A stretch of 64,000 nt of DNA from Salvelinus alpinus. Its lineage: Eukaryota > Chordata > Actinopteri > Salmoniformes > Salmonidae. The notes below the pieces were generated by a model. The model did no database searches, had not been told where the DNA came from, and worked only from the letters and a program-made list of their open reading frames with translations. Shown one piece after another: positions 1,561-31,437 of the stretch (position 1 is the first letter of the stretch; each line of letters begins with the position of its first letter). Position numbers and translations under genes: made by a program. The stretch is taken from NCBI RefSeq assembly GCF_045679555.1, contig NC_092087.1, forward strand, positions 89,329,920 through 89,393,919, read 5' to 3'.

Positions 1561-2051
1561 TGTAAACAATGTGTTGACTATACTATTTATAACGTTAACA
1601 ATTTATTGTGTTGCCTTGCCCTTCTGAGTTCTGTATATACAGGTCAAAGGTCCATGATGTCATTCAATTAGAACCCATTCCATTTAACACCCATGTCCAT
1701 CACTCCTCATCAGCTGTACAAAATGATACTGAAGGTTCAGTGTTTTAGACTAGAGCTGCCCCTACTGGCATCTCAACATTACTGCACCATCCTAATAATA
1801 ATGTCCTCAGTAATGATGGGCTAATAACAACATAACAAACTGACAATACATCAGATAGAATGGTGAAACACAACTCTGGCTACTTGACAAAGTCACATTT
1901 AATCACATAAACACTGATGTCTGTAGTAGTACAAAATGTCACTATCATATTATGTTACACTGTTGACCCTTGTGTACAGTACTGGTAGTAGCATTAGTTA
2001 GCAGAGGAATCAGTATCATCATCACCATAGCCTGCTGTATTGACTGCTGTT

Positions 2052-3070
2052 GTCCATATACTGTACAATCTAATGTAGCCTGTTATCCATATATAGTCTA
2101 ATGTAGCCTGTTATCTATATACAGTCTAATGTAGCCTGTTATCCATATATAGTCTAATGTAGCCTGTTATCCATATATAGTCTAATGTAGCCTGTTATCC
2201 ATATATAGTCTAATGTACCTGATATCCATATATAGTCTAATGTAGCCTGTTATCCATATACATTCTAATGTAGCCTGTTATCCATATATAGTCTAATGTA
2301 GCCTGTTATCCATATATAGTCTAATGTAGCCTGTTGTCCATATATAGTCTAATGTAGCCTGTTACCCATATATAGTCTAATGTAGCCTGTTGTCCATATA
2401 CAGTCTAATGTAGCCTGTTATCCATATATAGTCTAATGTAGCATGTTATCCATATATAGTCTAATGTAGCCTGTTATCCATATAGTCTAATGTAGCCTGT
2501 TATCCATATATAGTCTAATGTAGCCTGTTATCCATATATAGTCTAATGTAGCCTGTTATCCATATATAGTCTAATGTAGCCTGTTATCCATATATAGTCG
2601 AATGTAGCCTGTTATCCATATATAGTCTAATGTAGCCTGTTATCTATATATAGTCTGATGTAGCCTGTTATCCATATATAGTCTAATGTAGCCTGTTATC
2701 CATATATAGTCTAATGTAGCCTGATATCCATATATAGACTAATGTAGCCTGTTATCCATATATAGTCTAATGTAGCCTGTTATCCATATAGAGTCTAATG
2801 TAGCCTGTTATCCATATATAGTCTAATGTAGCCTGTTATCCATATATAGTCTAATGTAGCCTGTTATCCATATATAGTCTAATGTAGCCTGTTATCCATA
2901 TATAGTCTAATGTAGCCTGATATCCATATATAGTCTAATGTAGCCTGCTATCCATATATAGTCTAATGTAGCCTGTTATCCATATATAATCTAATGTAGC
3001 CTGTTATCCATATACAGTCTAATGTTGCATGTTATCCATATATAGTCTATTGTAGCCTGTTATCCAGATA
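2052..3070. repeat. 28-bp minisatellite, about 36 copies
   Basis: Tandem unit 'gtctaatgtagcctgttat' + 'ccatatata' (28 bp) with scattered substitutions and a few 2-bp deletions. Not coding. Confidence 0.95.
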
Positions 3071-3242
3071 CTGTAAAGTGCATATAAAGAAGCATAGAAT
3101 GACATATTAGAACTACTAACTAGTAATTTAATAGGATCTCTGTGTAAAAAACTCTGATATGATTCAGGAGGCCTGTAATAGGTCCATCTAGGACAGGAAG
3201 GTAGAACAGGAGAGTGATGTTGAGTGTGTTCTAAACCAACAA

Positions 3243-3727
3243 AACTACAACCCACCATCACTGTGTCTCATGTTAATACTACTCCTAAACACAACCCACC
3301 TTCACTGTGTCTCATGTTAATACTACTCCTAAACACAACCCACCATCACTGTGTCTCATGTTAATACTACTCCTAAACACAACCCACCGTCACTGTGTCT
3401 CATGTTGATACTACTCCTAAACACAACCCACCATCACTGTGTCTCATGTTAATACTACTCCTAAACACAACCCACCATCACTGTGTCTCATGTTAATACT
3501 ACTCCTAAACACAACCCACCTTCACTGTGTCTCATGTTAATACTACTCCTAAACACAACCCACCATCACTGTGTCTCATGTTAATACTACTCCTAAACAC
3601 AACCCACCGTCACTGTGTCTCATGTTAATACTACTCCTAAACACAACCCACCATCACTGTGTCTCATGTTAATACTACTCCTAAACACAACCCACCATCA
3701 CTGTGTCTCATGTTAATACTACTCCTT
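3243..3727. repeat. 44-bp minisatellite, 11 copies
   Basis: Unit begins 'acaacccaccatcactgtgt' and ends 'tactactcctaaac'. Copies differ mainly at one base (A, T or G after CACC), and the order of these variants repeats, which suggests block duplication inside the array. Confidence 0.95.
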
Positions 3728-3975
3728 AACCTCTTATGAAGCATCCACTCAATCACTCTTACTCTTTCTGTCACTTCAAAATATCCACCACCACAATCTA
3801 TTGCACTCAGAGCTCTTAAAATAGCAAGCACACGTCTTTATGTGAAACCACATGTACAATGTACATCCCGTCTTTTGAAGCACACAATATAGTTCAGTAT
3901 TTGTCAAGGGTGACAATAATGTTGGTCGTGACTGTATATCCCACAATCAGATTAATATGTCAAAATACATTTATA

Positions 3976-3977
<2 letters not shown>

Positions 3978-4063
<86 letters not shown>
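3978..4063. repeat. (CA)n microsatellite
   Basis: About 43 uninterrupted CA dinucleotides. Confidence 0.98.
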
Positions 4064-4066
<3 letters not shown>

Positions 4067-4204
4067 ATACTTGACCCTGGTATACTTTGACAGTGAACAT
4101 GACCCTATTGAATGGAGATCTGGGTATTACTGGCAAACTTTACTGATCATGTTTTAAACATGTAAATGAATAAACTGAACTAAACTAAACACATGAAACC
4201 ACAG

Positions 4205-4318
4205 TCCAGGATCAGTATTCACAAAGTGTCTCAGAGTAGGAGAGCTGATCTGGGATCAGTTTAGCCTTTTAGATCATAATTGTATGGACCGTCTGAGACA
4301 CTTTATGAACAAAGGCCC
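4205..4318. mobile_element. MITE-like foldback element
   Basis: Contains 'aaagtgtctcagagtagga' and the opposed 'gtctgagacactttatgaa', with 'ccttttagatcataat' between. The same internal text borders the 39-bp array at 51.98 kb, so this is an unexpanded relative of that element. Confidence 0.55.
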
Positions 4319-4319
4319 T

Positions 4320-5880
4320 GATGTAACAACCAAAACACAGTTCAAAATAAACCAACAAGTACAAAGACACAGGAAGTCATGTGATGTACGGCTAAAAACA
4401 TCAAAACTAAAACTATATTTCAAGATATCGTCAAGTGTACTTACAGAGTGAAGTGAAGGGGAAGGTCTTGAACAGTGAGTCAACGTACTGTCACTGCGTG
4501 GAAACAAGAAGTAGTCTACTGTAAGTATTAGTAGAAGCAGGCATAGCCTAAGTGTGAGTTCTGTGGTTGACACATTTTAAAGTAGCCTAGTCAGGGCATT
4601 AACATGCAGCAACAGCATGTCACATAAGGGATGTTACTGTATCTAAATAGAAAATGGTCTAAAGTCAGAATACTGTAGTTACATTTCTTTATTTGAGGAG
4701 TGGACCTTCATGTTTTACAAGAGACACAATGTGACCCATTCCCATCACTCCTCATCAGCTGGTACTGAAGGTTCCAGAACAGATGAAAGGGGAGTATCTT
4801 TGGTACCAGTGTTCTAGACTAGAGCTCTCCCTACTGACATCTCAACATTACTGCAGCTTCCAGGCTTCATATGTCCCCACTAGTCCGATGAAAATATCTT
4901 AAATACAAGTTAGAAAATGTCAAAAATGTATATATAGAATAAAACAGTCACGTACATAAAAGTACTGTTATTGGGACTTATGTTGAACTGGCGTTTGAAT
5001 TGAGTGAACTGGTGATCTCAACTAGCTTGTTAGCTACATGAAGCTGCTGTTATTCAGTGATAAACAAGTGTTTTTGTGCATCACACAGCTACTCTGAATG
5101 GACTGGATTGTGAACAATATGATGTGCTGCCGCTGAATTACAACAAGACCCCATAGTTAGCTAGTGAGCTAACTAGTTAGCTAACATTTAGCTATTAACA
5201 TTAGCTAGCTAGAAACAACAGACAACAGTGAGCTGTCATTATGCCAAGGCCAAGGCAAGCTGCTCTGAGTTTCCAGTGTGTTCTTGTGTGAAAGAGATGT
5301 CTTCAGCTCACGGATCTTCAGAACAACGGACTCAAAGTGAACCCTGACATGCATATAACTAAGGCTATCTGTCTGTCTGGGATTATTGTGTCCTATTGTG
5401 TTTGTATGATGCGTGTTTTTTTAAATGACAATTAATAATCTTTCATGTAATTGTTTTATGCTGCTTCATTATTGTTATTTTATTGTGTGATTATTTTTTT
5501 TTCATTTTTATAATTTAAAAAATCTAATATTTTCTTGCATATTAACAACTGCATTGTTGCTTAAGGGCTTGTCAGTAACCATTTTACAGTAAGGTCTACA
5601 CCTGTTGTACTTATACAATTTGATGTGATTTGTGTGTCTAGGTGCTGGACATTGCTCCCTCTGACACTGGGTTTCTGAACCTCTAAAAGTCTGAGCCGTT
5701 TGGGGGGTTCTACTAGCTGACATATGGTATTGTTTTAAGGTGGTAATACCATGGATCATTTAGCTATTTGATTTTGAATTATAGTACCCCTTTAGGTAAA
5801 AAAGGAGAAGGACTAATGTTTGTGAGAGCAGGCAGGTGACTGCAATATAGTCTGCCTGGAACATGCCCCATATTCAACTG
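4320..5880. other. no gene seen, AT-rich intergenic sequence
   Basis: No exon, SINE or tandem array that I can support. 5150-5220 has many short 'agctagttagctaac' words. 'tttatttatcccctgttgg' near 5900 resembles the tail of a fish LINE but is too short to assign. Confidence 0.4.
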
Positions 5881-6369
5881 TAATTCAATTCAAAAATAGC
5901 ATTTATTTATCCCCTGTTGGGGCAATTACTAGGCACCCTATGGCATCAGGCTGGCAGTGAGTCTCACAGTGACATCACAAGGGGTCACATGTCCAGTCAC
6001 ATGACCATACATACATACACAGTAAAACATATGATAACAACAGATGTCAGCCCCCTTAGTGTCTACAACATGGTCATCATAGAGGCGTTCACTGGGCAAA
6101 GATCCCTTCAAAGTTCTAATGATGATGTAATTTCCATGTTTCACAGTTCAGGCCGAGGGAGAGGGGGAAGGAAATCAGAGGTGCACTCCTCTTCACTTTG
6201 ATTGACACTTCACACACTCATTCTATATGTCCAGTGTTCTGTCTGGGATCTGTGGTCTGTGCCAGAGGACTACAAACGGGGTGACCCCCCCCAAGCATCC
6301 TGTTCCCTTTTAAAGTAGGGACACAGTCCCTCATCCTCTTCCTTAATCTTCATCATTCTCCTCCCTCTC

Positions 6370-7561
6370 TCATATCCAGTCGCTGCGTGGTGGACAGGGT
6401 TGCCATGGTTTCCTGTCTCTTCCTCTCTGGTCAGGCTTGAAGCGACACTTGTCACCATAGAAACAGCCGGTGGTCCTCCAGAAGAAACACTCGTCACCAT
6501 TGATGGGAGCCATCCTCCTGGTCCTGGGAGAGAGAGAGACAAACTGTATGAAAACACAAACACCTGCACCAGTGCTCCTGCTTCCTCCTTCCATCACTTT
6601 GTACATTTCAAAAGTTTATATGAGTTGATTGGTAACACTTTAGAATACCTCATAATGATGTTTTGACTGCAGATGGATGTCCTTACCCTGTGGAGGCGTA
6701 CTGGGAGGCTGAGGAGGTGTTGAGGCCTATAGGGTTGGTCCTCTGAGGAGAGGAAGGGGTTCTCTGCATCTAGCGGTCTGGGTACCTGATCACCAGCCTG
6801 GTGCTCTCCAGCTCCACCCCCTGGACAGGAGGACAAACCGCAGGCGCAGTCCAAATACATATAATTGAACCAATAGCATTGTCCCAAAAGTACAATGGAA
6901 CTAATAGCATTGTCCAAAAAGTACAGTGAAACCAATAACATTGCATTGGATTTTATTACTGGCTTGTTTTTCATTTGCCGCCAGAAAATAGTTGAATCGT
7001 TGTACTTTTCTCTCTGTGTTGGATCAATGATGATACTATTTATGTGCAAGACTCAAGCTCTACACTGAAGGCTCTTGACTCTGTGTATCATGCAGAGACG
7101 TCTAACTCACCATTGTGATCTCTACAGTGCTGTCAGGTGGACATCAGTAGCAACACGCAGGCTCAAACACTGGTACATTCTTATTCAGAAGACCATTTAA
7201 TAAGGAAAACTGCCATTTTATATATCCTCTCTTCTAGCATGAAATGAGAACACATACAAACCCAATAGCATAGTCCCAAAAGTACAATAGAACCAATAGC
7301 ATAGTACTAAGCGTACAATGGAACCAATAGTATAGTCTCAAAAGTACAATGGAACCATTAGTCCCAAAAATACAATTGAACCAATAGCATGGTCCCAAGA
7401 GTACAAACTCCTTAAGTTCAAGCTAAAAAATTGAAAGCACATCTCACATAGTTAAATGCATATGACAGCATTATGTTTCATCCCACCTCTCACCTTTAGC
7501 CTCTCCAAGGTGCAAGTGGACATGTTGGGATTCTTGAAGTTGACAAAGGCACATAATCTCT
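6370..7561 (-). CDS. candidate gene end: RRM C-terminal half plus CCCH zinc finger
   Basis: Three minus-strand exons with compatible splice phases can be joined. 7494-7561 reads RLCAFVNFKNPN and then LERLK, with donor GTGAGA. 6786-6820 reads GVELESTRLVI, between a CAG acceptor and a GTACCC donor. 6370-6523 follows a CTCTCTCCCAG acceptor, reads MAPINGDECFFW and GCFYGDKCRF, and ends in a stop. The first two together resemble beta3-alpha2-beta4 of an RNA recognition motif (AFVNF as RNP1, then L-x-G-V-E-L-x-x-x-R-L-V-I). The last contains C-x7-C-x5-C as in CCCH fingers, but the expected final His is replaced (RFKPD). I cannot name the gene. The 5' exons are missing or lie beyond the 59-bp array, whose units run up to the first acceptor. 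It could be a real short gene end or a decayed copy. Confidence 0.42.
6858..7410. repeat. degenerate repeat with 'ccaatagcat' and 'aagtacaat' motifs
   Basis: The words 'aaccaatagcat', 'gtcccaaaagtacaat' and 'ggaacc' recur in two clusters (6860-6950 and 7260-7400). They interrupt the introns of the candidate CCCH gene. Confidence 0.6.
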
Positions 7562-8720
7562 CTTGTAGAACTCTGGTACTCTCTCTTTCCCCACACCAAC
7601 AGTACAGAACATATAATCAGAATGTAGAACTCTGATACTCTCTCTTTCCCCACACCTACAATACAGAACATATAATCAGAATGTAGAACTCTGGTACTCT
7701 CTCTTTCCCCACACCTACAATACAGAACATATAATCAGAATGTAGAACTCTGGTACTCTCTCTTTCCCCACACCTACAATACAGAACATATAATCAGAAT
7801 GTAGAACTCTGGTACTCTCTATCTCCCCACACCAACAGTACAGAACATATAATCAGAATGTAGAACTCTGATACTCTCTATCTCCCCACACCAACAGTAC
7901 AGAACATATAATCAGAATGTAGAACTCTGATACTCTCTATCTCCCCACACCAACAGTACAGAACATATAATCAGAATGTAGAACTCTGATACTCTCTCTC
8001 TCCCCACACCAACAGTACAGAACATATAATCAGAATGTAGAACTCTGATACTCTCTCTCTCCCCACACCAACAGTACAGAACATATAATCAGAATGTAGA
8101 ACTCTGATACTCTCTCTCTCCCCACACCAACAGTACAGAACATATAATCAGAATGTAGAACTCTGATACTCTCTATCTCCTCTCACCTACAGTACAGAAC
8201 ATATAATCAGAATGTAGAACTCTGATACTCTCTCTCTCCCCACACCAACAGTACAGAACATATAATCAGAATGTAGAACTCTGATACTCTCTCTCTCCCC
8301 ACACCAACAGTACAGAACATATAATCAGAATGTAGAACTCTGATACTCTCTATCTCCCCTCACCTACAATACATAACCTAGATCTAGAATGTAGAACTCT
8401 GATACTCTCTATCTCCCCACACCTACAGTACATAACCTAGATCTAGAATGTAGAACTCTGATACTCTCTCTCTCCCCACACCTACAGTACATAACCTAGA
8501 TCTAGAATGTAGAACTCTGATACTCTCTCTTTCCCCACACCTACAATACAGAACATAGAATCAGAATGTAGAACTCTGATACTCTCGATCTTCCCACACC
8601 TACAGTAAAGAACATAGAATTAGAATCAAGAACTTTGATACTCTCGATCTTCCCACACCTACATTACAGAACATATAAATAGAATGTAGAACTCTGACAC
8701 TCTCTATCTCACCAACAGTA
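7562..8720. repeat. 59-bp minisatellite, about 19 copies
   Basis: Unit 'gtagaactctgatactctct' + 'ctctccccacaccaacagta' + 'cagaacatataatcagaat'. Late copies carry the variant 'cataacctagatctagaat'. One edge coincides with the splice acceptor of the putative RRM exon on the minus strand. Confidence 0.95.
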
Positions 8721-8867
8721 CAGAATGTAGAAGGAGGAGAGGAAGGGAGGGAGATGACCACAGTCAAAATATAAGGAATATATGAACAGGGTGCTATTTG
8801 AGACAGCCTATAGAACCTATAACAGTAGAAATGTATACTGTGGAATAACCAGAATAAATATACTCAC

Positions 8868-9150
8868 CCACTGGAGTCCAGAGGGGAGGAGGGGTCCACC
8901 ACTGGAGTCCAGAGGAGAGGAGAGGTCCACCACTGGAGTCCAGAGGGGAGGAGAGATCCACCACTGGAGTCCAGAGGGGAGGAGAGGTCCACCACTGGAG
9001 TCCAGAGGGGAGGAGAGGTCCACCACTGGAGTCCAGAGGAGAGGAGAAGAGAGATACACCACTGGAGTCCAGAGGGGAGGAGAGATCCACCACTGGAGTC
9101 CAGAGGGGAGGAGAGGTCCACCACTGGAGTCCAGAGGGGAGGAGATAAGA
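8868..9150. repeat. 31-bp G-rich minisatellite
   Basis: Nine copies of 'ccactggagtccagagggga' + 'ggagaggtcca'. Frames on both strands are open only because the unit is short and lacks stops. Confidence 0.95.
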
Positions 9151-9537
9151 TGACATGGACAGGATGGGGTCATGGGGGGGTCTGATAAGATGACATGGAC
9201 GGGATGGGGTCAGGGGGGTCTGATAAGATGACATGGACAGGATGGGGTCAGGGGGGGTCTGATAAGATGACATGGACGGGATGGGGTCAGGGGGGGTCTG
9301 ATAAGATGACATTGACAGGATGGGGTCAGGGGGGGTCTGATAAGATGACATGGACGGGATGGGGTCAGGGGGGGTCTGATAAGATGACATGGACGGGATG
9401 GGGTCAGGGGGGGTCTGATAAGATGACATGGACGGGATGGGGTCAGGGGGGGTCTGATAAGATGACATGTACTGGGTGGGGTCAGGGGGGGTCTGATAAG
9501 ATGACATGGACGGGGTGGGGTCAGGGGGGGTCTGATA
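9142..9537. repeat. 39-bp minisatellite, locus 1
   Basis: Ten copies of 'gataagatgacatggacggg' + 'atggggtcagggggggtct'. The same unit forms an independent array at 51.98-52.44 kb. Confidence 0.95.
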
Positions 9538-9559
9538 AAACACCCTGAGGGTTGATTAT

Positions 9560-10087
9560 AAAAAACGTTTGACATGTTTCTGTGGACATTATAGATATAA
9601 TTTGGAATTTTTGTCTGCGTTGTCGTGACCGCTCTTTCCGGTGGATTCCTGGGCATAACGCACCAAACGAACGGAGGTATTTGGATATAAAAAATATCTT
9701 TATGGAACAAAAGGAACATTTGTTGTCTAACTGGGAGTCTCGTGAGTGAAAACATCCGAAGATCATCAAAGGTAAACGATTAATTTGATTGCTTTTCTGA
9801 TTTTCGTGACCAAGTTACCTGATGCTAAGTGTACTTAATGTTTTGTCGAGCGATCGATAAACTTACACAAACGCTTGTATTGCTTTCGCTGTAAAGCATA
9901 ATTTCAAAATCTGAGACGACAGGTGGATTAACAAAAGGCTAAGCTGTGTTTTGCAATATTGCACTTGTGATTTCATGAATATGAATATTTTCTAGTAATA
10001 TTATTTGACTGTGGCGCTATGCTATGCTATGCTATTCAGCGTTGCTGATGACAATTATCCCGGATCCGGGATGGGTAGTCCAGAAAG
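9560..10087. mobile_element. interspersed repeat typical of salmonid DNA
   Basis: Runs from 'gacatgtttctgtggacat' to 'cccggatccgggatgggtag'. I recognise it as a common salmonid dispersed repeat, class unknown. It contains no protein-coding exon that I can support. Confidence 0.4.
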
Positions 10088-11134
10088 GTTAATCTTTTCT
10101 TTTTATTGGCCAGTCTGAGATATGTCTTTTTCTTTGCAACTCTGCCTAGAAGGCCTACATCCCAGAGTCGCCTCTTCACTGTTGACGTTGAGACTGGTAT
10201 TTTGAAGGTACTATTTAATGAAGCTGCCAGTTGAGGACTTGTGAGGCATCTGTTTCTCAAACTAGACACTCTAATGTTCTTGTCCTCTTGCTCAGTTGTG
10301 CACCGGGGCCTCCCACTCCTCTTTCTATTCTGGTTAGTGCCAGTTTGTGCTGTTCTGTGAAGGGAGTACGAGCGCTGTACGAGATCTTCAGTTTCTTGTC
10401 AATTTCTCGCATGGAATGGCCTTCATTTCTTAGAACAAGAATAGACTGACAAGCTTTTGAAGAAAGGTCTTTGTTTCTGGCCATTTTGAGCCTGTAATCG
10501 AACTCACAAATGCCGATGCTCCAGACATTCAGCTAGTGTAAAGAAGGCCAGTTTTATTGCTTCTTTAGTCAGGACAACTGTTTTCAGCTGTGCTAATGTA
10601 ACAGTATAGCTTCCGTCCCTCTCCTCGCCCCTACCTGTGCTCAAACCAGGGACCCTCTGCACACATTAACAACTGCCTCCCACGAAGCATCGTTACCCAT
10701 CGCGCCACAAAAGCCATTGCAGAGCAAGGGGAACAACTACTTCAAGGTCCCAGAGCAAGTGACGTCACCCATTGAAACGATATTAGCGCGCACCCCGCTA
10801 ACTAGCTAGCCATTTCACATCGGTTACACTAACATAATTGCAAATAGGTTTTCTAATGATCAATTAGCCTTTTAAAATTATAAACTTGGATTAGCTAACA
10901 CAACGTGCCATTGGAACACAGGAATGATGGTTGCTGATAATGGGCCTCTGTATGCCTCTGTAGATATTCCATAAAAAATCAGCCGTTTCCAGCTACAATA
11001 GTCATTTACAATATTAACAATGTCTACACTGTATTTCTGATCAATTTGATGTTATTTTAATGGACAAAAATTGTGCGTTTCTTTCAAAAACCAGGACATT
11101 TCTGAGTGACCCCAAACTTTTGAACGGTAGTGTA
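10088..11134 (-). mobile_element. Tc1-like transposon, 5'-truncated, with nested 232-bp element
   Basis: Minus strand encodes the N-terminal part of a Tc1-type transposase: MARNKDLSSKACQSILVL, NEGHSMREI (first helix-turn-helix) and a second segment with VSTSTVKRRLWDVGLLGRVA. The outer end 'ccgttcaaaagtttggggtc' (reverse strand, 11090-11134) is the terminal repeat. The catalytic half is missing and frames are broken, so it is dead. A related copy begins at 62.8 kb and carries the same inner element at the same place. Confidence 0.8.
10597..10828 (-). mobile_element. 232-bp tRNA-like short element (SINE or MITE)
   Basis: Ends TGTAAC/GTTACA, flanked by CTAA (10593-10596 and 10829-10832) as a 4-bp target duplication. 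On the minus strand it has tRNA-promoter-like boxes ('gcgcgatgggtaacgatgc' and 'ctggtttgagc'). Its length equals that of the copy at 63100-63331. Confidence 0.65.
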
Positions 11135-11191
11135 TAGTGCACGACTTTTAGTTCAGAGCCCAGACGTTTTATGGGGGAATTGTTTTAGCAG

Positions 11192-11505
11192 GTATGGTTG
11201 GCTGTGGGGGCACACAGCCTCCAGTGGGAGGAGACTATATCAGTGTTGGTGGAACATCCTGCTGTGCAGACCCCTGCCAGCACTACACCGTACTTAATGA
11301 CGATTGGCGTGCCACCAACAACAATGCCAACGTTAATGGCGAGCACTGCGACACGGATGTCAACTGGCAGGGCTGGTATCGCCTGTTCCTGGGGAACACC
11401 AGTGTTCAGATGCCAGAGAGGTGTGTGGACAGTTACATGTGTGGGACGGAGATCCCCATGTGGCTCACGGATCCCCATCCCCAGCTGTTAGACGGGGTGG
11501 TTCAG
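11192..11505 (+). pseudogene. copy D: truncated D8C exon of uromodulin/GP2-like gene
   Basis: After a TTTTAGCAG acceptor the frame matches exon 2 of genes A-C ([43 protein letters not shown]). Homology stops after the codons for GVVQ, and the sequence passes directly into the 26-bp array. The last five cysteines of the domain (VCG..CC..KACYG..C..YC) are therefore absent. Two upstream cysteines are also changed (CPVGxDC in A and B is PPVGGDY here). There is no exon 1: intron sequence is cut by the Tc1-like element. I call it a pseudogene. Confidence 0.85.
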
Positions 11506-12075
11506 CTTATTCATGCTGTCTACTCCAACAGCTTATTCATGCTGTCTACTCCAACATCTTTTTCATTCTGTATACTCCAACAGCTTATTCAAGCTTACTC
11601 CAACATCTTATTCATGCTGTCTACTCCAACAGCTTATTCATGCTGTCAACTCCAACACCTTTTTCATTCTGTATACTCCAACAGCTTATTCATGCTGTCT
11701 TCTCCAACAGCTTATTCATGCTGTCTACTCCAACAGCTTATTATTGCTGTCTACTCCAACAGCTTATTCATGCTGTCAACTCTAACAGCTTATTCATGCT
11801 GTCTACTCCAACACCGTTTTCATGCTGTCTGCTCCAACAGCTTATTCATGCTGTCTTCTCCAACAGCTTATTCATGCTGTCTACTCCAACAGCTTATTAT
11901 TGCTGTCTACTCCAACAGCTTATTCATGCTGTCAACTCTAACAGCTTATTCATGCTGTCTACTCCAACACCGTTTTCATGCTGTCTGCTCCAACAGCTTA
12001 TTCATGCTGTCTACTCCAACAGCTTATTCATGCTGTCTACTCCAACATCTTATTCATGCTGTCTACTCCAACAGC
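11506..12075. repeat. 26-bp minisatellite derived from ZP exon 5, array D
   Basis: About 22 copies of 'attcatgctgtctactccaa' + 'cagctt'. This text is the exon 5 coding sequence for HAVYSNSLF in genes A, B and C. Because 26 is not a multiple of 3, the three frames alternate ([23 protein letters not shown]) without stops, giving a spurious 304-codon frame. Confidence 0.93.
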
Positions 12076-12300
12076 TGGCTAAACAGCTGGCTTGTTAAAG
12101 ACAAGTGAAATTCATGATACATATTTAGTCAATGTTCTGGACACTTCCAAGCTGTCTTACCAAAGCAGTACGACTATAAGTCATATTGGTGTAATGAAAT
12201 AGTGCTGTTTGAGTTCCACCGTAGAAGAACACAATAAAAGTCTTCAGAATGACCATGACAGTCTGAATATTAGTTTATGATGGTCTTTTTAATGACTCCA
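12076..12300 (+). pseudogene. copy D: 3' flank homologous to the 3' flanks of genes A and B
   Basis: 'ctggctaaac', 'gttaaagacaagtg', 'agaagaacacaat' and 'cagaatgaccatgacagtct' match, in order, the sequence after the poly(A) signals of gene A (26050-26240) and gene B (46565-46745). Copy D is thus a whole gene copy with its middle deleted. Confidence 0.8.
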
Positions 12301-13020
12301 CATGGGTAGTGCCTTTTAATATGAATGTGTTTATGCTTGTGTATGTACTATTGTTGTCTCTAGTTACCTAGACATCGATTATTTTTCACTGCAGGATCTT
12401 GCGCCATCATCATCGACTACCAAACAGAAGATTAGAATCCTGCCAACTGTCCTGTGTGTATCCTGTTGTTGGAGATGTTAGTTTAAGATTCATTACAGGA
12501 TCCTATACTCATGCCAACTGTCCTGTGTGTATCCTGTTGTTGGAGATGTTAGTTTAAGATTCATTACAGGATACTATACTCATGCCAACTGTCCTGTGCA
12601 CAAAATCTATGGTGTCTTGTTCATGTTCGTGTCAGCAGTCAACAGACTCTTTTTATTTTGATAGTGTAAAGATGAAACACAACTCATTGGTGAGAGGTGC
12701 CACCGCTAACAGTTTGTAGATGTTGGAACATACAGCCCCCCCCCCCATGTTATTCCTAAGGAAAAAACATTTAGATGCACATTCTAATAGTACATCATAC
12801 AACAACAAAAATTGGCCTGTTTCAATAGCCTGTTGAAGCAAATAAAGAATGACTATGAGGAAGTCATTTCCCTCCAGGTTGAGGAGAATGCAAGCTCATT
12901 GGAGAGGTTACGTCTGCCCCATTGCATCCCTCACATCCTTGCCACCTTATACAGGAGAAACCTAATCAAAAGAAATGAGCCAATTATATGTAACGCTGTC
13001 ACATCAATACTTATACTAAA
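12301..13020. other. intergenic, no gene seen
   Basis: Holds about 2.5 tandem copies of a 77-bp unit with 'caactgtcctgtg' and 'ggagatgttagtttaagatt' (12440-12600). A short non-ATG open frame is kept in both tandem copies of the region but resembles no known protein. Confidence 0.5.
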
Positions 13021-13292
13021 ACATGTTTGCAGTTGCGCAGCGGTCTAAGGCACTGCATCTCAGTGCAAGAGGTGTCACTGCAGTCCCTGGTTCAAATCCA
13101 GGCTGCATCACATCCGACCGTGATTGGGAGTCCCATAGGGTGACGCACAATTGGCTCAGCGTTGTCCGGGGTAGGCCGTCATTGTAAATAAGAATTTATT
13201 CTTAAGGCCATCATTGTAAATAAGAATTTGTTCTTAAGGCCATCAATGTAAATAAGAATTTGTTCTTAACTGACTTGCCTGGTTAAATAAAT
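13021..13292 (+). mobile_element. tRNA-derived SINE with three tail units
   Basis: tRNA-like head ('gcgcagcggtctaaggcac', 'tggttcaaatcc'), body 'gattgggagtcccataggg', then the salmonid tail. The tail segment 'ggccatcattgtaaataag' + 'aatttgttcttaa' is present three times, an early stage of the array at 15.9 kb. Confidence 0.88.
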
Positions 13293-14029
13293 TAAATATA
13301 TATTTTTAAAGACTCCTCAGACAAGGATGTTTCTCCACAAGCGTGGTCAGTGTGTGTGAGCGACTGCTTGGCAAGTCCAAACAATAGGTGTCCCCTACAC
13401 CTACACCTACACCTGGCTTTCTGCAGTGCTGAATGCTGAGTTGGGCTTGTGGATTCTTCATTCCAGATTTCTGAGGTAAAAAAAAAAAGAAGCATTAAAT
13501 AATGGGCCACTTACTAGAACTAAACAACATGCTAATGTGTGGTTTGAGACAGGGAGATGTCTGTCCCCTCAGTTTCAATGACACATGTATACTCAAAGTT
13601 ACCAATACATCAATCCAACAAAATAATTTCCCAAAGTTTTAGGCAAATGTTTTAAGAGAACTTTGAAAACAAAATGCTAAATTAGACATTTAAGCAAACA
13701 AAGATTAATATTTTGCAAGATATTTAATGGTCTACAAGGCTGAAAATGAACTTTGATAAATGTACCTTACGGTAGCACCCACTGAAAATCACACTTGCTG
13801 TTGTCTTTTCTCTGTCTTGAATCAACAGAGAGATTCTCAGACTATTGGTCTGCTGCATTCACCTACTTTTATCCACAAATAATCTCATTTAAACATCAAT
13901 TCTATACCTTTGCTTGTCGTTCACGCCTAATGGCACCACACCAGAGACGTCACTCTGATCTACTTCCCTTCCCAGACAAGGTGTGAAGATGTTTGCTCTT
14001 ATTTGAATTTCAAATATTAATTTTACCAT
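13293..14029. other. upstream region shared by promoters E and A
   Basis: Nearly identical to 16873-17600. It contains no coding exon that I can support and probably holds the distal promoter sequence of the D8C-ZP genes. Confidence 0.5.
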
Positions 14030-14119
14030 TTGAAACAGTCATTTCCCTCTTCGGCATATGTATATAAATCAAGCAGGCTTGGTTCCTTTCTACCACAAAC
14101 AAAGGCTCACTCCAGACTG
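14030..14119 (+). promoter_or_regulatory. duplicated TATA promoter and 5' UTR exon, copy E
   Basis: TATATAAA at 14061-14068 followed by the same leader as gene A (ending 'aggctcactccagactg'). In gene A this leader is followed by a GTAAGA donor. Here it is joined at 14119/14120 directly to the middle of a D8C exon, so no donor remains. Confidence 0.6.
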
Positions 14120-14288
14120 TGGCGAGCACTGCGACAAGGATGTCAACTGGCAGGGCTGGTATCGCCTGTTCCTGGGGAACACCAGTGTTCAGATGCCAGA
14201 GAGGTGTGTGGACAGTTACATGTGTGGGACGGAGATCCCCCTGTGGCTCACAGAGCCCCATCCCCAGCTGTTAGACGGGGTGGTTCAG
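14120..14288 (+). pseudogene. copy E: D8C exon fragment fused to promoter
   Basis: Starts inside the exon at the codons for [19 protein letters not shown] and ends, like copy D, after GVVQ, where the 26-bp array begins. It arose by tandem duplication of 11337-14119. The frame is open from an ATG within the TATA region through the array, but it has no signal peptide and lacks half of the domain, so I call it a chimeric pseudogene. Confidence 0.82.
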
Positions 14289-14780
14289 CTTATTCATGCT
14301 GTCTTCTCCAACAGCTTATTCATGCTGTCTACTCCAACATCTTTTTCATTCTGTATACTCCAACAGCTTATTCAAGCTTACTCCAACATCTTATTCATGC
14401 TGTCTACTCCAACAGCTTATTCATGCTGTCAACTCCAACACCTTTTTCATTCTGTATACTCCAACAGCTTATTCATGCTGTCTTCTCCAACAGCTTATTC
14501 ATGCTGTCTACTCCAACAGCTTATTATTGCTGTCTACTCCAACAGCTTATTCATGCTGTCAACTCTAACAGCTTATTCATGCTGTCTACTCCAACACCGT
14601 TTTCATGCTGTCTGCTCCAACAGCTTATTCATGCTGTCTACTCCAACAGCTTATTCATGCTGTCTACTCCAACATCTTATTCATGCTGTCTACTCCAACA
14701 GCATATTCTTGCTGTCTACTCCAACAGCATATTCTTGCTGTCTACTCCAACAGCTTATTCATGCTGTCTACTCCAACAGC
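14289..14780. repeat. 26-bp minisatellite derived from ZP exon 5, array E
   Basis: About 19 copies of the array D unit. Near the 3' end two copies carry 'agcatattcttgctgtc', absent from array D, so the arrays have diverged since duplication. Confidence 0.93.
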
Positions 14781-15726
14781 TGGCTAAACAGCTGGCTTGT
14801 TAAAGACAAGTGAAATTCATGATACATATTTAGTCAATGTTCTGGACACTTCCAAGCTGTCTTACCAAAGCAGTAGAACTATTAGTCATATTGGTGTATT
14901 GAAATAGTGCTGTTTGAGTTCCACCGTAGAAGAACACAATAAAAGTCTTCAGAATGACCATGACAGTCTGAATATTAGTTTATGATGGTCTTTTTAATGA
15001 CTCCACATGGGTAGTGCCTTTTAATATGAATGTGTTTATGTGTGTGTATGTACTATTGTTGTCTCTAGTTACCTAGACATCGATTATTTTTCACTGCAGG
15101 ATCTTGCGCCATCCTCATCGACTACCAAACAGAAGATTAGAATCCTGCCAACTGTCCTGTGTGTATCCTGTTGTTGGAGATGTTAGTTTAAGATTCATTA
15201 CAGGATCCTATACTCATGCCAACTGTCCTGTGTGTATCCTGTTGTTGGAGATGTTAGTTTAAGATTCATTACAGGATACTATACTCATGCCAACTGTCCT
15301 GTGCACAAAATCTATGGTGTCTTGTTCATGTTCGTGTCAGCAGTCAACAGGTCCCTTTTTTTTTTGATAGTGTAAAGATGAAACACAACTCATTGGTGAG
15401 AGGTGCCACCGCTAACAGTTTGTAGATGTTGGAACATACAGCCCCCCCCCCATGTTATTCCTAAGGAAAAACCATTTAGATGCACATTCTAATAGTACAT
15501 CATACAACAACAAAAATTGGCCTGTTTCAATAGCCTGTTGAAGCAAATAAAGAATGACTATGAGGAAGTCATTTCCCTCCAGGTTGAGGAGAATGCAAGC
15601 TCATTGGAGAGGTTACGTCTGCCCCATTGCATCCCTCACATCCTTGCCACCTTATACAGGAGAAACCTAATCAAAAGAAATGAGCCAATTATATGTAACG
15701 ATGTCACATCAATACTTATACTAAAA

Positions 15727-16872
15727 CGGCACTGCATCTCAGTGCAAGAGGCGTCACTGCAGTCCCTGGTTCAAATCCAGGCTGCATCACATCCGACCGT
15801 GATTGGGAGTCCCATAGGGTGACGCACAATTGGCTCAGCGTTGTCCGGGGTAGGCCGTCATTGTAAATAAGAATTTGTTCTTAAGGCCGTCATTGTAAAT
15901 AAGAATTTATTCTTAAGGCCGTCATTGTAAATAAGAATTTATTCTTAAGGCCGTCATTGTAAATAAGAATTTATTCTTAAGGCCGTCATTGTAAATAAGA
16001 ATTTGTTCTTAAGGCCGTCATTGTAAATAAGAATTTATTCTTAAGGCCGTCATTGTAAATAAGAATGTATTCTTAAGGCCATCATTGTAAATAAGAATTT
16101 ATTCTTAAGGCCGTCATTGTAAATAAGAATTTATTCTTAAGGCCGTCATTGTAAATAAGAATTTATTCTTAAGGCCGTCATTGTAAATAAGAATTTATTC
16201 TTAAGGCCGTCATTGTAAATAAGAATTTATTCTTAAGGCCGTCATTGTAAATAAGAATTTATTCTTAAGGCCGTCATTGTAAATAAGAATTTATTCTTAA
16301 GGCCGTCATTGTAAATAAGAATTTATTCTTAAGGCCGTCATTGTAAATAAGAATTTATTCTTAAGGCCGTCATTGTAAATAAGAATTTATTCTTAAGGCC
16401 GTCATTGTAAATAAGAATTTATTCTTAAGGCCGTCATTGTAAATAAGAATTTGTTCTTAAGGCCGTCATTGTAAATAAGAATTTGTTCTTAAGGCCGTCA
16501 TTGTAAATAATAATTTATTCTTAAGGCCGTCGTTGTAAATAATAATTTATTCTTAAGGCCGTCATTGTAAATAAGAATTTATTCTTAAGGCCGTCATTGT
16601 AAATAAGAATTTATTCTTAAGGCCGTCATTGTAAATAAGAATTTATTCTTAAGGCCGTCATTGTAAATAATAATTTGTTCTTAAGGCCGTCATTGTAAAT
16701 AAGAATTTATTCTTAAGGCCGTCATTGTAAATAAGAATTTATTCTTAAGGCCGTCATTGTAAATAAGAATTTATTCTTAAGGCCGTCATTGTAAATAAGA
16801 ATTTATTCTTAAGGCCATCATTGTAAATAAGAATTTGTTCTTAACTGACTTGCCTGGTTAAATAAATAAAAT
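15727..16872 (+). mobile_element. 5'-truncated SINE with tail expanded into a 32-bp minisatellite
   Basis: The head is shortened relative to unit 1 ('ctaaaac' joins 'ggcactgcatctcagtgc'). From 15856 to 16848 the segment 'ggccgtcattgtaaataag' + 'aatttattcttaa' (32 bp) is repeated about 31 times, then the normal SINE end 'ttaactgacttgcctggtt' follows. Confidence 0.93.
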
Positions 16873-17629
16873 ATATATTTTAAAGACTCCTCAGACAAGG
16901 ATGTTTCTCCACAAGCGTGGTCAGTGTGTGTGAGCAACTGCTTGGCAAGTCCAAACAACAGGTGTCCCCTACACCCACAGGCTCTGGCTTTCTGCAGTGC
17001 TGAATGCTGAGTTGGGCTTGTGGATTCTTCATTCCAGAATTCTGAGGTAAAAAAAAAGAAGCATTAAATAATGGGCCACTTACTAGAACTAAACAACATG
17101 CTAATGTGTGGTTTGAGACAGGGAGATGTCTGTCCCCTCAGTTTCAATGACACATGTATACTCAAAGTTACCAATACATCAATCCAACAAAATAATTTCC
17201 CAAAGTTTTAGGCAAATGTTTTAAGAGAACTTTGAAAACAAAATGATAAATTAGACATTTAAGCAAACAAAGATGAATATTTTGCAAGATATGTAATGGT
17301 CTACAAGGCTGAAAATGAACTTTGATAAATGTACCTTACAGTAGCACCCACTGAAAATCACACTTGCTGTTGTCTTTTCTCTGTCTTGAATCAACAGAGA
17401 GATTCTCTGACTATTGGTCTGCTGCATTCACCCACTTTTATCCACAAATAATCTCATTTAAACATCAATTCTATACCTTTGCTTGTCGTTCACGCCTAAT
17501 GGCACCACACCAGAGACGTCACTCTGATCTACTTCCCTTCCCAGACAAGGTGTGAAGATGTTTGCTCTTATTTGAATTTCAAATATTCGTTTTACCATTT
17601 GAAACAGTCATTTCCCTCTTCGGCATATG

Positions 17630-17688
17630 TATATAAATCAAGCAGGCTTGGTTCCTTTCTACCACAAACAAAGGCTCACTCCAGACTG
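17630..17688 (+). promoter_or_regulatory. TATA box and 5' UTR exon of gene A
   Basis: TATATAAA at 17630-17637. Transcription would start near 17660, and the leader ends at 17688 before a GTAAGA donor. The coding exon 1 at 19869 is preceded by a TTTCTTTCAG acceptor, so a 5' UTR intron of about 2.2 kb is likely. It contains a Tc1 element. Confidence 0.6.
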
Positions 17689-19901: not shown

Positions 19902-22900
19902 ATGATGTCATCGGGTGTTCTGATGATGCTCCTGTTCTTTAAGCATGTTACTGCAGACAACTCAGGTAAAGGGTTGATTGGCTTATTCCCGTTTAGGTAA
20001 CGGAATGAGAGCTTCACTCAGAATATTGTTGCTCCCCAGTGCTTTATTCCCGCAGCCAAAACAGCAACGTTCCGTGTGCAGGTCTCTCATTCCTTTATCT
20101 CACTGTATAAGGGCACAAGGCGAGACACAGATGCAGACACCGGTGGCAGATGGTTTAAGTCTTTGATATTTTTTTGAACAATCCAAAAGGGGTACAGAGT
20201 GGCAGGCAGGATCGAGGTCAGGGCAGGCAGAACGGTCAGGCAGGCAGGTACGGAGTCCAGAAAACAGGCAAGGGTCAAAACCGGGAGGACTAGAAAAAGG
20301 AGAATAGCAAAAGAAGTACGGGAACAACACATACAAGACGAACTGGCACAGAGAGACAGGAAACACAGGGATATATACACTGGCACAGAGAGACAGGAAA
20401 CACAGGATATATACACTGGTACAGAGAGACAGGAAACACAGGGATATATACACTGGTACAGAGAGACAGGAAACACAGGGATATATACACTGGCACAGAG
20501 AGACAGGAAACACAGGATATATACACTGGTACAGAGAGACAGGAAACACAGGGATATATACACTGGTACAGAGAGACAGGAAACACAGGGATATATACAC
20601 TGGCACAGAGAGACAGGAAACACAGGGATATATACACTGGTACAGAGAGACAGGAAACACAGGGATATATACACTGGCACAGAGAGACAGGAAACACAGG
20701 GATATATACACTGGTACAGAGAGACAGGAAACACAGGGATATATACACTGGTACAGAGAGACAGGAAACACAGGGATATATACACTGGTACAGAGAGACA
20801 GGAAACACAGGGATATATACACTGGTACAGAGAGACAGGAAACACAGGGATATATACACTGGTACAGAGAGACAGGAAACACAGGGATATATACACTGGC
20901 ACAGAGAGACAGGAAACACAGGGATATATACACTGGCACAGAGAGACAGGAAACACAGGGATATATACACTGGTACAGAGAGACAGGAAACACAGGGATA
21001 TATACACTGGTACAGAGAGACAGCAAACACAGGGATATATACACTGGTACAGAGAGACAGGAAACACAGGGATATATACACTGGTACAGAGAGACAGGAA
21101 ACACAGGGATATATACACTGGTACAGAGAGACAGGAAACACAGGGATATATACACTGGTACAGAGAGACAGGAAACACAGGGATATATACACTGGTACAG
21201 AGAGACAGGAAACACAGGGATATATACACTGGTACAGAGAGACAGGAAACACAGGGATATATACACTGGCACAGAGAGACAGGAAACACAGGGATATATA
21301 CACTGGTACAGAGAGACAGGAAACACAGGGATATATACACCAGGGATAATAAGCGACACCTGTTGGGGGTGGAGACAATCACAAGAACAGGTGAACCAGA
21401 TCAGGGTGTGACACACTGTATTCATTATTTTAGCCTTATTCTCAAGTTCAGGATGTAGATATCACCCTCGTTCTCTTTATTGCCAGAGTTTCAACTCTGG
21501 AGAGAGAGACATTGGGTTGCATGCAAAATGGCTTCCTAATGATTGTATAGTGCACTACCTTTGACCAGAGCCCAGGGATATCATACGTTTTCATGGGGGG
21601 GGGGGTTGTTTTCGCAGGTGTGATTGTTGCCAAATCTATCCAGTTTAGCTGTGGGGGCACACAGTGTCCAGTGGGACAGGACTGTATCAGTGTTGGTGGA
21701 ACACTTCGCTGTGCAGACCCCTGCCAGAACTACACCGCACTGAATGACGACTGGCGTTCCACCACCAACAACAACAACCAGGTTAATGGGGGCTTACACT
21801 GTGACCAGAGCATCAACTTTCAGGGCTGGTATCGCCTGTTCCTGGGGCACACCAGCGTTCAGATGCCAGAAAGGTGTGTGGAGATTAACATGTGTGGAAC
21901 CCACGCCCCCCTGTGGCTCACGGATCCCCATCCCCAGCTGTCAGACAGGGTGGTTCAGAGGGGTGTCTGTGGGAGCTGGTCTGGTAACTGCTGCTTCTTC
22001 AAAGAAACTCCCATCCATGTCAAAGCCTGCTATGGAAACTACTATGTCTACAAGTTGGTTCCTGCAACAGGCTGCCACTTGGCCTACTGTGCAGGTATGT
22101 ACCATCATAATGTCCTTGTCACTGTTTCTTAAAGACATTAAGAATGTTCCAAGGTGTCCAATTCACTCTCTGAACCCAGAACCAAGTCTCTGTATATATA
22201 TTGACAGTATGTCAAGAGAGACTTTAGACACTCCACAACGGTTGCGTAAACATTTTTGTGCAACTCAGCTGTGGTTTCACAACCGTAGTGTTGTACATCA
22301 GTCGTATAACCTGAGTGTGTCCTAGTCACAGCAAATCCATGAACCCTCCTCCCCTCTGCTGTTCCAGACGTCAACACCAAGGTGTGTTCTACCTGTAGAG
22401 ATGATGACACCTGTAGGAGTGAGGATAAGATCACCTGGAGGTGTGAGAGGAAAGGTGAGTGTTAAGAAAAACACATCGTACTCCTCAGTGATTGATTGAC
22501 TTATTGGGGAAAAGATGCACTGAGTTACAGACCGGGGGTCAAATCCATTTCCAACGTTTTCCAACTTCTGATGGAATACATACAACACTGAGAAAACAAC
22601 ACAGCATATAGTCAATAAATAACTACAACAAATAGATGCAGGAATATGAAAATACAGTCAACCTGTTCTGATCCGTTCATTTTGTCCTCATGGACATGAA
22701 TAAATCTATTATCATTATCAACAAAAACTCTAACAGCTAAGATGGCCTCGGGAGCCAGACCTGTGCCTTCACTTTTCTGATGTAGCAGAGGCATTAATGC
22801 AGTCACATTAAGAGCTACTCAACTTTGTCCAAAGATGAACTCTGACCTATCCTTTAACCCCCCGGGACTGGGACAGTTTGATAGGCAGTGGGAGACTATT

Positions 22901-25434
22901 CCACAACAGAATACCAGTGTAGTGGAGGAACGTGTTCCTGCAGCACTATTCGCTCTTGACACCTGGCTGACATCATTTTGTATTCTCTTGTTTTTCTCTC
23001 TTCCTCTCTTTCATTCTTTCTCTACTCCCCCTCTCTATCTACCTTTTATAACAGCCCCTACACCTACACCACCTCGGATAACTGTTACCACCACCAATCC
23101 TCCTATCATGGCCCCAGAGGTGGTGTGTGGGCAGAGCATGATACAGGTGGGTCTAAACAGGGCTAACCTGAGGGCCGCTGGTCTGAACGCTTCCACAGCT
23201 CACCTGGCCGACTCTAGGTGCTCCGCCCACGAGGATCGTAACGGCACGGTGTGGTACCAGGTGGAGCGCAGGGAGGGACGCTGTGGAAACACTCTGGAGG
23301 TGAGAACACGTTACCTCAATGTCTGACTGGAGGTTGTTCAACACTGGAAGAGTTTAGACTATAACTGATCCTTAATGTTAGTAGGTCTGTGTATAAGACC
23401 TTAATGTTAGTAGGTCTGTGTATAAGACCTTAATGTTAGTAGGTCTGTGTATAAGACCTTAATGTTAGTAGGTCTGTGTATAAGACCTTAATGTTAGTAG
23501 GTCTGTGTATAAGACCTTAATGTTAGTAGGTCTGTGTATAAGACCTGAGTATTAATTTAACTGTGAACACTTTTCTTCTATTTCAGACTAACACCACCCA
23601 TGCTGTCTACTCCAACAGCTTATTTGTTTATCCAGTAGATGGGAGGAACGACTCTCTCTCCCGACCCGTGAGCTTTCCTCTCTCCTGTGTCTATCCTCTG
23701 GGGACAGAGAGCAGTCTGAATGTGGCCATCAGACCCTACCTACTGTGAGAAAATACACAGAATGTTTATTAAGTTTATTCTGACAGAACAGTCATTACGA
23801 AATCAAACTGTTTTCGAATAATTCTGTCTTCTGGTTTCCAATTGAAGATATTGTTATACATGAAACACCTACATGAAGATATATAATAAGTGTTTGGAAG
23901 TCTTAAGGGGGGCTCCCGGGTGGAGCAGCGGTCTAAGCAGGGCTAGAGGCGTCACTGCAGACACCCTGTTTCAAATCCAGGCTGTATCACAACCGGCTGT
24001 GATTGGGAGTCCCATAGGGTGGCGCACAATTGTCCCAGCGTCGTCCGTGTTTGGCTGGTGTAGGCCGTCATTGTAAATAAGAATTTGTTCTTAACTGACT
24101 TGCCTAGTTAAATAAAGGTTCAATAATAAAAGATTTGTTCACACGTTTTTTTGTAATAACTTTGATATCTGAAGTTATCAAACTGTCTAATATCTGATGT
24201 CATTTGGCTTCATGTTCACCTCTTGATAGGAATAGTCGTGGAGCTGTTGGAGTCGGTGCCAAGGCCAGAGCCTCCATGTTTCTGTATCGTAACTCAAACT
24301 ACACAGAGTCTTACCCAGCTGGTGAAGTCCTCCTGCCGATTGGTTCCACTCTGCGCGTGGGCGTGTCCGTAGAGGAGTCCGGGATGGAGCGTTTTGTTGT
24401 TGTTCTAAGGGACTGCTATGCCAACCAATCCCCCAACCCTGATAATCTCCCGCGGACCTACATGATTCAGGACAGGTCCATGACTCTATTCATCAGCTGT
24501 TTGCATGTCTATGTGTGTTTGTTTTGTGTGTGAAGTATGGTATGTTTGTTGCTGTGTACGGTCTGTGTAGCCGTGCATGCCTTGAACCCTTTGCTGTTTC
24601 TTGGCTCTTCTCCCAGGTGTCCTACAAATCGTACCCAGGTGACCGTGGAGGAAAGCGGCTCGTCCCTCAGGGCTCGCTTCTCTGCTGCGTTGCAGGTGGA
24701 CTACCGTTACTTCTTCCTGCACTGCAGCCTCAGCCTGTGTGACCAGAGGAGCTCCTCCTGCACTCCAGTGAGTCCTCAACTCCTCCACAGTCTCTCTCTG
24801 ACTCTTTGACTTTTGTGTTTAGTCTCTATGATGCAGTGCTAGGTCTCTCTGACGTAGTGCTTGGTCTCTCTGACGTAGTGGTTGGTCTCTCTGACGTAGT
24901 GCTTGGTCTCTCTGACGTAGTGGTTGGTCTCTCTGACGTAGTGGTTGGTCTCTCTGACGTAGTGCTTGGTCTCTCTGACGTAGTGGTTGGTCTCTCTGAC
25001 GTAGTGCTTGGTCTCTCTGACGTAATGGTTGGTCTCTCTGACTTAGTGGTTGGTCTCTCTGACGTAGTGGTTGGTCTCTTTCTCTCTACAGGTGTGCTCT
25101 GGAAGGAAATCTCGCTCTGTGTCTGATACTGTCCTCCTCAAGCCCATAGCCATCGGGCCAATCAGCTGTGAGTATTTCATTCAAGTTTAGTTCATAAGGT
25201 AATATACCACCTAGGCTTTAGGCAATAAGTAGCTGACTGCTGTCGCCAAGCTGTGTTTTAGCGACCACCTGCTGGGTGCCAGAGAACGGTGGCTATTTCA
25301 CAGATTCAACATGTAGATTCTTTGGGAAATGATCAGGAAAATGATGGTCTGGTCAGAGGAACTGTCGTTCTGGTGTGTTTCCTCTCTAACAGTCAGATTC
25401 TCTTTGGCCCCCAGGGGCCCAGAGCCTGGAGTGA
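19902..25434 (+). CDS. gene A: uromodulin/GP2-like secreted D8C + ZP domain glycoprotein
   Basis: Nine exons join in frame to 507 codons: 19902-19965, 21618-22094, 22368-22454, 23055-23299, 23587-23744, 24230-24475, 24617-24767, 25092-25167 and 25415-25434. Exon 1 encodes a signal peptide ([13 protein letters not shown]). Exon 2 encodes the D8C module of uromodulin, GP2 and liver ZP proteins ([30 protein letters not shown]). Exon 3 is a short Cys-rich link. Exon 4 starts with a Pro/Thr linker. Exons 4-5 form ZP-N and exons 6-7 ZP-C. Exon 8 has the RKSR site (residues 481-484) followed by a hydrophobic patch. The end is WAQSLE. No anchor is seen, so it is probably secreted and polymerising. 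The exon 6 donor AG|GTCCAT is weak but is conserved in gene B. Orthology to a named gene is not settled. Confidence 0.87.
20105..21412. mobile_element. interspersed repeat in intron 1 of gene A, interior expanded
   Basis: Flanks such as 'caaggcgagacacagatgca', 'gtcaaaaccgggaggacta' and 'gatcagggtgtgaca' belong to a dispersed salmonid repeat that I recognise by text, with no coding capacity seen. Its middle has become the 37-bp array listed separately. Confidence 0.5.
20345..21340. repeat. 37-bp minisatellite, about 27 copies (intron 1 of gene A)
   Basis: Unit 'cagggatatatacactggta' + 'cagagagacaggaaaca'. Since 37 is not a multiple of 3 and the unit has no stop in several frames, frames of 362-441 codons open on both strands. 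They are artefacts. Confidence 0.96.
23373..23546. repeat. 29-bp minisatellite in intron 4 of gene A
   Basis: Six copies of 'ttagtaggtctgtgtataag' + 'accttaatg'. Confidence 0.95.
23909..24126 (+). mobile_element. tRNA-derived SINE in intron 5 of gene A
   Basis: Head 'ggtggagcagcggtctaag', body 'gattgggagtcccataggg', tail 'gaatttgttcttaactgac' and 'gttaaataaaggt'. Same family as the SINE at 13.0 kb, with a single tail unit. Confidence 0.88.
24826..25080 (+). repeat. 21-bp minisatellite in intron 7 of gene A
   Basis: About 12 copies of 'ggtctctctgacgtagtgc'-type units of 21 bp. The length is seven codons and the frame stays open (GLSDVVV repeats). Gene B has the same array in the same intron. 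Confidence 0.93.
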
Positions 25435-31390: not shown

Positions 31391-31437
31391 ACAGAAAGAG
31401 GAAATCAAAATGGGCTTTTTGGTCTTCATTTAAAGTT

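Follow-up and report, generated by a model that had tools for sequence, protein, structure and literature searches.

Two tandem arrays of a 26-bp unit lie near a cluster of D8C-ZP genes in Salvelinus alpinus, each running on directly from a truncated D8C exon, and the locus raises the question of how a short piece of a protein-coding exon comes to be a minisatellite, in what order the steps took place and whether the long reading frame that crosses the repeat belongs to a gene. The parent of a minisatellite is, to our knowledge, seldom known. Here it is known to the base, it is present nearby in three exons, and both joints of the array can be read, such that the steps of its birth, namely deletion, local copying, block growth and segment duplication, become traceable. 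In other words, the array preserves a clear fossil record of coding DNA giving birth to a tandem repeat.

The arrays and their parent exon

The window, by which is meant the whole 64,000-bp stretch of DNA that was analysed (C2:89,329,920-89,393,919 in a 2.37-Gb assembly), holds three recognisable D8C-ZP genes, all on the + strand. These are gene A (exons 21618-25435, with a putative signal-peptide exon at 19902-19966), gene B (41727-46091, with a homologous signal exon at 33170-33234 that is probably its own) and gene C (48642-50337), which is without ZP-C exons. The spliced forms of A and B are open as far as a stop codon common to both. A Pfam scan of A, C, D and E matches gene A to D8C_UMOD, ZP-N and ZP-C and gene C to D8C and ZP-N. 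The ZP part of A further matches solved uromodulin and GP2 chains (six distinct sequences; best E 4.4e-39), and in this alignment the segment HAVYSNSLF of A pairs with HATYSNTLY of uromodulin.

The arrays belong to two further copies, D and E. As delimited by TRF, the array of D spans 11503-12076 (period 26, 22.2 copies) and that of E 14286-14781 (19.2 copies); a table of the individual units places them at 11506-12074 (+ strand; 22 units, 21 of 26 bp and one of 23 bp) and 14289-14779 (+ strand; 19 units, 18 of 26 bp and one of 23 bp), respectively. Both are thus head-to-tail arrays whose period falls within the 10-100 bp of a minisatellite. In the register of the array, six of the 22 units of D and five of the 19 of E are identical to the reference unit, and unit 4 has a 3-bp deletion. 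The block formed by units 8-13 of D is present a second time as units 14-19, a six-unit duplication; in E this block is found once. Otherwise the order of the units in E is that of D, except for a net three extra units towards the 3' end, of which two (units 17-18) are a variant absent from D. In this one assembly, therefore, the lengths of the two arrays differ by blocks of six and three units.

The ZP-N exons of A (at 23599), B (44248) and C (50198) each contain a perfect match to the 20-base core of the array. When up to three mismatches are allowed, the core has 42 matches in the window, whereas 100 shuffles gave 0.00 on average. In each gene the progenitor is single-copy: in A at 23599-23624, within the exon 23587-23744, where it encodes HAVYSNSLF of ZP-N; in B at 44248-44273, within 44236-44387; and in C at 50198-50223, within 50186-50337 (all + strand). 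Array and exon are identical over 26 bases for A and C and over 27 for B, in which the array matches the next base too, as had been expected from the original prediction that the unit is sequence of the neighbouring D8C-ZP exons. In the register of the exon the exact 26-mer, CATGCTGTCTACTCCAACAGCTTATT, is found 11 times in the 2.37-Gb assembly, with five occurrences in D, three in E and one in each of A, B and C.

The direction of the relationship, from exon to array, follows from the conservation of the exon as protein and from the state of the segment at two other loci, in both of which it is single-copy. One of these is an intronless relative at C4:74.5 Mb (L025), where the segment has two mismatches, and the other a distant paralog at C2:90.8 Mb (L027), where the one near match, with six mismatches, lies in the ZP-N exon. 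The derivation of the array unit from the ZP-N exon is, accordingly, as certain as one assembly allows. The intronless relative (C4:74,500,000-74,509,900, also covered by L024) is a D8C-ZP copy with stop codons, the D8C part of which is split by ~4.3 kb of other DNA, and it is probably a processed pseudogene.

Joints, deletion and order of events

Copy D retains the 5' part of a D8C exon (11192-11505, + strand), with a splice acceptor just before 11192, and is cut in the middle of the domain after the GVVQ codons. In the aligned parts this piece is 93% identical to C, 85% to B and 83% to A. Alignment to A-C bears out that the exon stops after GVVQ and runs straight into the array, since homology ends at 11505 (14288 in E) and the array starts at the next base. 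At this 5' joint the exon runs to 11505 (GGTTCAG) and is followed by CTTATTCATG, while the parent exon has AACAG before CTTATT; the microhomology is CAG (3 bp), and the D8C exon enters the array in frame.

At the 3' joint (12075-12108, + strand, inclusive of the stop codon TGA of the open frame at 12106-12108) the last unit reads CAACAGCT and then GGCTAAAC, as compared with AAAACT and then GGCTAAAC in the flank of B, such that CT (2 bp) is common to the two. A 7-bp insertion after this CT, AGCTGGC, is a local duplication which repeats the joint. The DNA that follows (12091-12300, + strand) is homologous to DNA 3' of A (26063-26266) and of B (46574-46777), with blastn identities of 83-85%. The array had been said to run into the normal 3' flank of the gene and, while homologous downstream DNA is indeed what it meets, that DNA is intergenic: in A it starts at 26054 and in B at 46565, which is 620 and 475 bp, respectively, beyond the stop codon and in both cases past two AATAAA motifs. 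The span from the D8C exon to this downstream DNA, which amounts to 4,095 bp relative to A and 4,167 bp relative to B (~4.1 kb), is missing from D. In its place stand the 22 units of D and, in E, 19, which accords with the proposal that a gene copy was collapsed and one ZP exon segment amplified some 20-fold.

Three features of the array bear on how this came about. No exon bases from outside the 26-mer are left at either end. The array is permuted with respect to the exon, in that CTTATT comes ahead of CATG, which means that a step of tandem copying predated or accompanied the joints. Lastly, both joints lie at the identical CAG/CT phase of the unit: the array ends with the CAG and CT of one further unit, and the same end doubles as the joint of the deletion. 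This identity of phase speaks for a single copying event rather than for an older array trimmed in two separate steps, and it is a moderate argument for a single repair event with repeated local copying.

It is very likely, then, that D is a pseudogene fragment whose minisatellite arose from D8C-ZP exon DNA by deletion and local copying. In this reading a gene copy of the uromodulin/GP2-like D8C-ZP type would have lost ~4.1 kb, from the middle of its D8C exon to intergenic DNA beyond the gene, and tandem copies of 26 bp from its ZP-N exon would have come to fill the place of the deleted span. The joints were presumably made through microhomology-mediated repair with template switching, and the array may then have grown by slippage or unequal exchange, with the six-unit block duplication in D and the 2.78-kb tandem duplication that gave E as later steps which the sequence itself shows. 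A retroposed cDNA was considered as the source of the joint between D8C and the array and set aside, since the joint falls within the D8C exon rather than at an exon boundary; an intronless relative, L025, does exist elsewhere, albeit without an array.

A different order of the same events is possible, if somewhat doubtful. Here the array would have grown first within an intact ZP-N exon, to be trimmed afterwards on each side by two deletions; the difference is one of event order only, and the probability of this order sits within that of the reading just given. The permuted register is in keeping with it, since at least one tandem duplication came before or with the joints, as are the short arrays and duplications found in introns and in the final coding exon of both A and B. 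What it has to accommodate, however, is that both ends lie at the CAG/CT phase, a coincidence estimated by eye at about 1 in 10 to 1 in 26, and that exon sequence outside the 26-mer is absent at both ends.

Copy E provides the means of placing the collapse in relative time. The segment 11337-14119 (+ strand; 2.78 kb) is duplicated in tandem, with the joint at 14119/14120, and matches 14120-17688 piecewise at 94-98% outside the arrays. The D8C exon fragment of E (14120-14288, + strand; 98% to D) is without the exon start or acceptor: it begins at TGGCGAGCAC within the exon, and there is no homologous acceptor. An independent origin of the two copies was therefore rejected, E being a tandem copy of D, and the joints and unit order that they have in common mean that the collapse is older than the duplication. 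Over three segments outside the arrays, D and E differ at 4/166, 13/1069 and 17/844 sites (1.2-2.4%), as compared with 24/191 sites between D and A and 20/191 between D and B in the downstream flank. The collapse thus occurred once and is younger than the split from A and B, this being a relative order within one genome.

The same comparison makes it very improbable that the joints and copy numbers are an artefact of collapsed or misjoined reads. Arrays of this type are indeed hard to assemble, but D and E have the same joints and yet each has its own unit gains, together with the divergence outside the arrays, and the window is without any N.

An in-window parallel to the exon array is found ~1.1 kb from the array of D, where a 32-bp array made from the tail of a SINE-like element, which we take to be a SINE, has three copies in D (13173-13269) and 31 in E (15852-16844, + strand). 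The tail is single-copy at 24062, 51875 and 58110. From the numbers in D and E, the copy number of this array changed after the duplication.

The reading frame of copy D

The frame of D is open from the acceptor at 11192 to the stop codon at 12106-12108, and that of E is open too, as foreseen in the claim that a 26-bp unit produces a long frame of novel peptide. The frame itself is real; the new protein is not supported, given the cut D8C domain, the lack of a signal-exon homolog and the likelihood of such openness by chance.

With regard to the domain, Pfam finds in D and E positions 1-62 of the 88 of D8C_UMOD alone (in E, in the read-through frame), without the order of D8C_UMOD, ZP-N and ZP-C that marks the family. 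According to the part of the literature consulted on D10C, its disulfides pair C1-C8, C2-C9, C3-C6, C4-C10 and C5-C7 (PMC8930769). Mapping of the cysteines by spacing gives C1-C4 in D and C2-C4 in E, with C5-C10 gone from both, such that no D10C disulfide pair survives in D. The hairpin cysteine, which stands as QDC in A, is GDY in D. D and E are, in short, remnants of the family and not working members.

With regard to the start, a search for relatives of the signal exons of A and B found none upstream of D in 11.2 kb of the window and 30 kb beyond it, only short matches at the level of chance, the strongest of which was a 15-bp minus-strand match in the adjoining sequence (L028; E 0.004). 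Within these 41 kb, in other words, no homolog of the A/B signal exons is available as the secretory start of the repeat frame, such as an antifreeze-like gene birth would have. A mechanical scan of 4500-11190 put forward a signal-exon candidate at 10024, which is not homologous to the A/B exon and was judged to be a chance occurrence.

With regard to the frame, its openness with a 26-residue period is explained by a unit that is stop-free in all three forward frames. Of 234 single substitutions in the unit 12 make a stop, and in simulations the frame remains open with P 0.55, 0.48, 0.41 and 0.30 after 12, 15, 18 and 25 events, respectively, as compared with ~14 distinct unit changes counted by eye from the unit table. 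One of the three frames of the array does carry stops (two in D, one in E), and a second frame through it is open as well. More generally, 1418 of the 2786 26-mers that can be drawn from the A/B coding exons would yield an open array, which makes a long open frame across such an array poor evidence of a gene, and among the other arrays tested 8/19 have at least one stop-free frame among the six. The 37-bp array at 20342-21340 (27 copies), stop-free in all six frames and over up to 333 codons, is in itself a warning against taking array frames for genes. The open frame of D and E is thus compatible with chance expectation. On the other hand, neither the 5' joint nor the 3-bp deletion of unit 4 disturbs the frame, and the differences of +6 and net -3 units between D and E also keep it; taken together these features are mildly unusual under neutrality.

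Such frame-keeping changes would be the product of selection if D were transcribed from a start exon as a chimeric gene, with a D8C start and a 26-residue repeat tail running through three frames, which the sequence makes highly unlikely. The open frame, the plausible splice acceptor kept before the D exon, the frame-preserving joint and unit differences, and an AATAAA at 12233 (14938 in E) where A and B have AATGAA would all suit a gene of this kind. All five D10C disulfides are, however, without a partner, E has neither exon start nor acceptor, and relatives of the A/B start exons were not found upstream, although an unrelated start exon would escape this search. The second open frame of the array and the stop-free frames of other arrays tell likewise against it. 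The coding differences between D and E, one synonymous and three non-synonymous over 55 codons, have no power to decide the matter, and neither they nor the openness of the frame lend support to selection. Most likely, to judge from the sequence, the array gives no useful product and is silent. If a transcript were found, the locus would offer an uncommon look at a repeat protein in its first stage.

Known systems and the surrounding cluster

The closest precedent, in outcome, is the antifreeze glycoprotein of notothenioids, which arose from trypsinogen (Chen et al. 1997), as outlined in the part of PMC8622921 that deals with it. In both cases a gene copy had a very small part of itself tandemly amplified, which gave a repetitive open frame, and shed the coding sequence that went unused. 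As described in that source, however, the antifreeze unit is of 9 nt, a multiple of three, lies across an intron-exon junction and encodes a selected protein, whereas the unit of D and E is of 26 nt, lies inside one exon and rotates through three frames; a start exon was not found for it, nor any sign of function.

Among models for the birth of minisatellites, in the summary of them given in PMC3389668, one starts from noncontiguous repeats at which slippage occurs (Taylor and Breden 2000) and another from direct repeats of 5-10 bp that flank the progenitor (Haber and Louis 1998). The slippage type has an incomplete terminal unit as its mark; here the end of the array, after the CAG and CT of a further unit, is at once the deletion joint. 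As in these models, unique local sequence has become a tandem array, and D reduced to one unit would sit between two copies of CAGCT. The exon progenitor, by contrast with the models as summarised there, has no such flanking repeat: the flanks of the exon in B, ACGCCACC and CGTTTATCCA, have at best 1 bp in common at the boundary, and the CAGCT flanks exist in the rearranged copy only. A second difference is that the birth took place with, or before, a 4.1-kb deletion. The same source, in the portion concerned, puts at least 23% of human minisatellites and satellites down to transposable elements (PMC3389668). These share with the present case an identifiable parent of which a part was amplified, and the 32-bp SINE-tail arrays of the window are of this kind; for the 26-bp arrays, as distinct from the cases described there, the parent is a protein-coding exon.

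That the unit is instead a dispersed satellite which came to insert at this locus and resembles the exon secondarily or by chance can hardly be entertained, since all 11 exact copies of the 26-mer fall inside the window with none elsewhere in the assembly, a 195-bp array query against the assembly matched arrays D and E alone (counts that are lower bounds), and the homologous exon pieces at L025 and L027 are single-copy. At the level of exact matches in this assembly, then, the multiple loci of a dispersed satellite are absent, and the better match to such a satellite that would have undone the original prediction did not appear. A comparison of the array with viral contigs, a weak control for fish sequence, gave 0 matches.

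Among fish, the nearest comparison for the cluster itself is zebrafish omcin1-15, a teleost uromodulin/GP2-like cluster (PMC11415648), in which according to the account there D10C/ZP genes likewise stand close together, stem from recent duplications and include some short outliers. The main text of that paper is without the words 'tandem' and 'pseudogene', and an exon-derived array is not among the descriptions in the relevant part. In Atlantic cod, as reported in the relevant part of PMC5241972, some annotated genes are made up largely of tandem repeats; they have an open frame and a degree of supporting evidence, yet no known relatives. This indicates that array-like frames occur in other fish too. 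In the openly licensed literature, neither this locus nor a minisatellite from a D8C-ZP exon was found in the titles and abstract openings among the matches listed.

Arrays are plentiful at this locus, with 21 tested arrays, hand-picked among 77 TRF rows, spanning 14,870 of the 64,000 bases. Short local duplications are common in the region, and the exon array is one instance among them, with a parent that is, as it happens, coding sequence. In both A and B the terminal short coding exon, together with its acceptor and stop codon, is doubled as a tandem pair of 53-54 bp (25412-25517 and 46068-46174). A 28-bp array in the intron of B, at 43826-44171 and directly before the progenitor exon, has at most one partial copy at the same site in C and is another recent birth or loss. 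In gene C the intron after the ZP-N exon passes, at 50338-50761, into the 37-bp array that is found downstream of A and B, the ZP-C exons having been lost by a deletion that ends at this array. GGTTAG telomere-like repeats at 31435-31892 adjoin a related 30-bp array.

Mobile and duplicated DNA is also present. A 996-codon open frame on the - strand (36383-39373), between the probable signal exon and the D8C exon of B, resembles the polyprotein of a non-LTR retrotransposon, and an element directly upstream of the D exon (10138-11128), with an inverted relative at 62800-63731, is assumed by us to be of a Tc1-like family. The opening ~8.9 kb of the window (about 650-8867) is for the most part repeated, in pieces of 74-97% identity, ~27-30 kb upstream (L029-L030).
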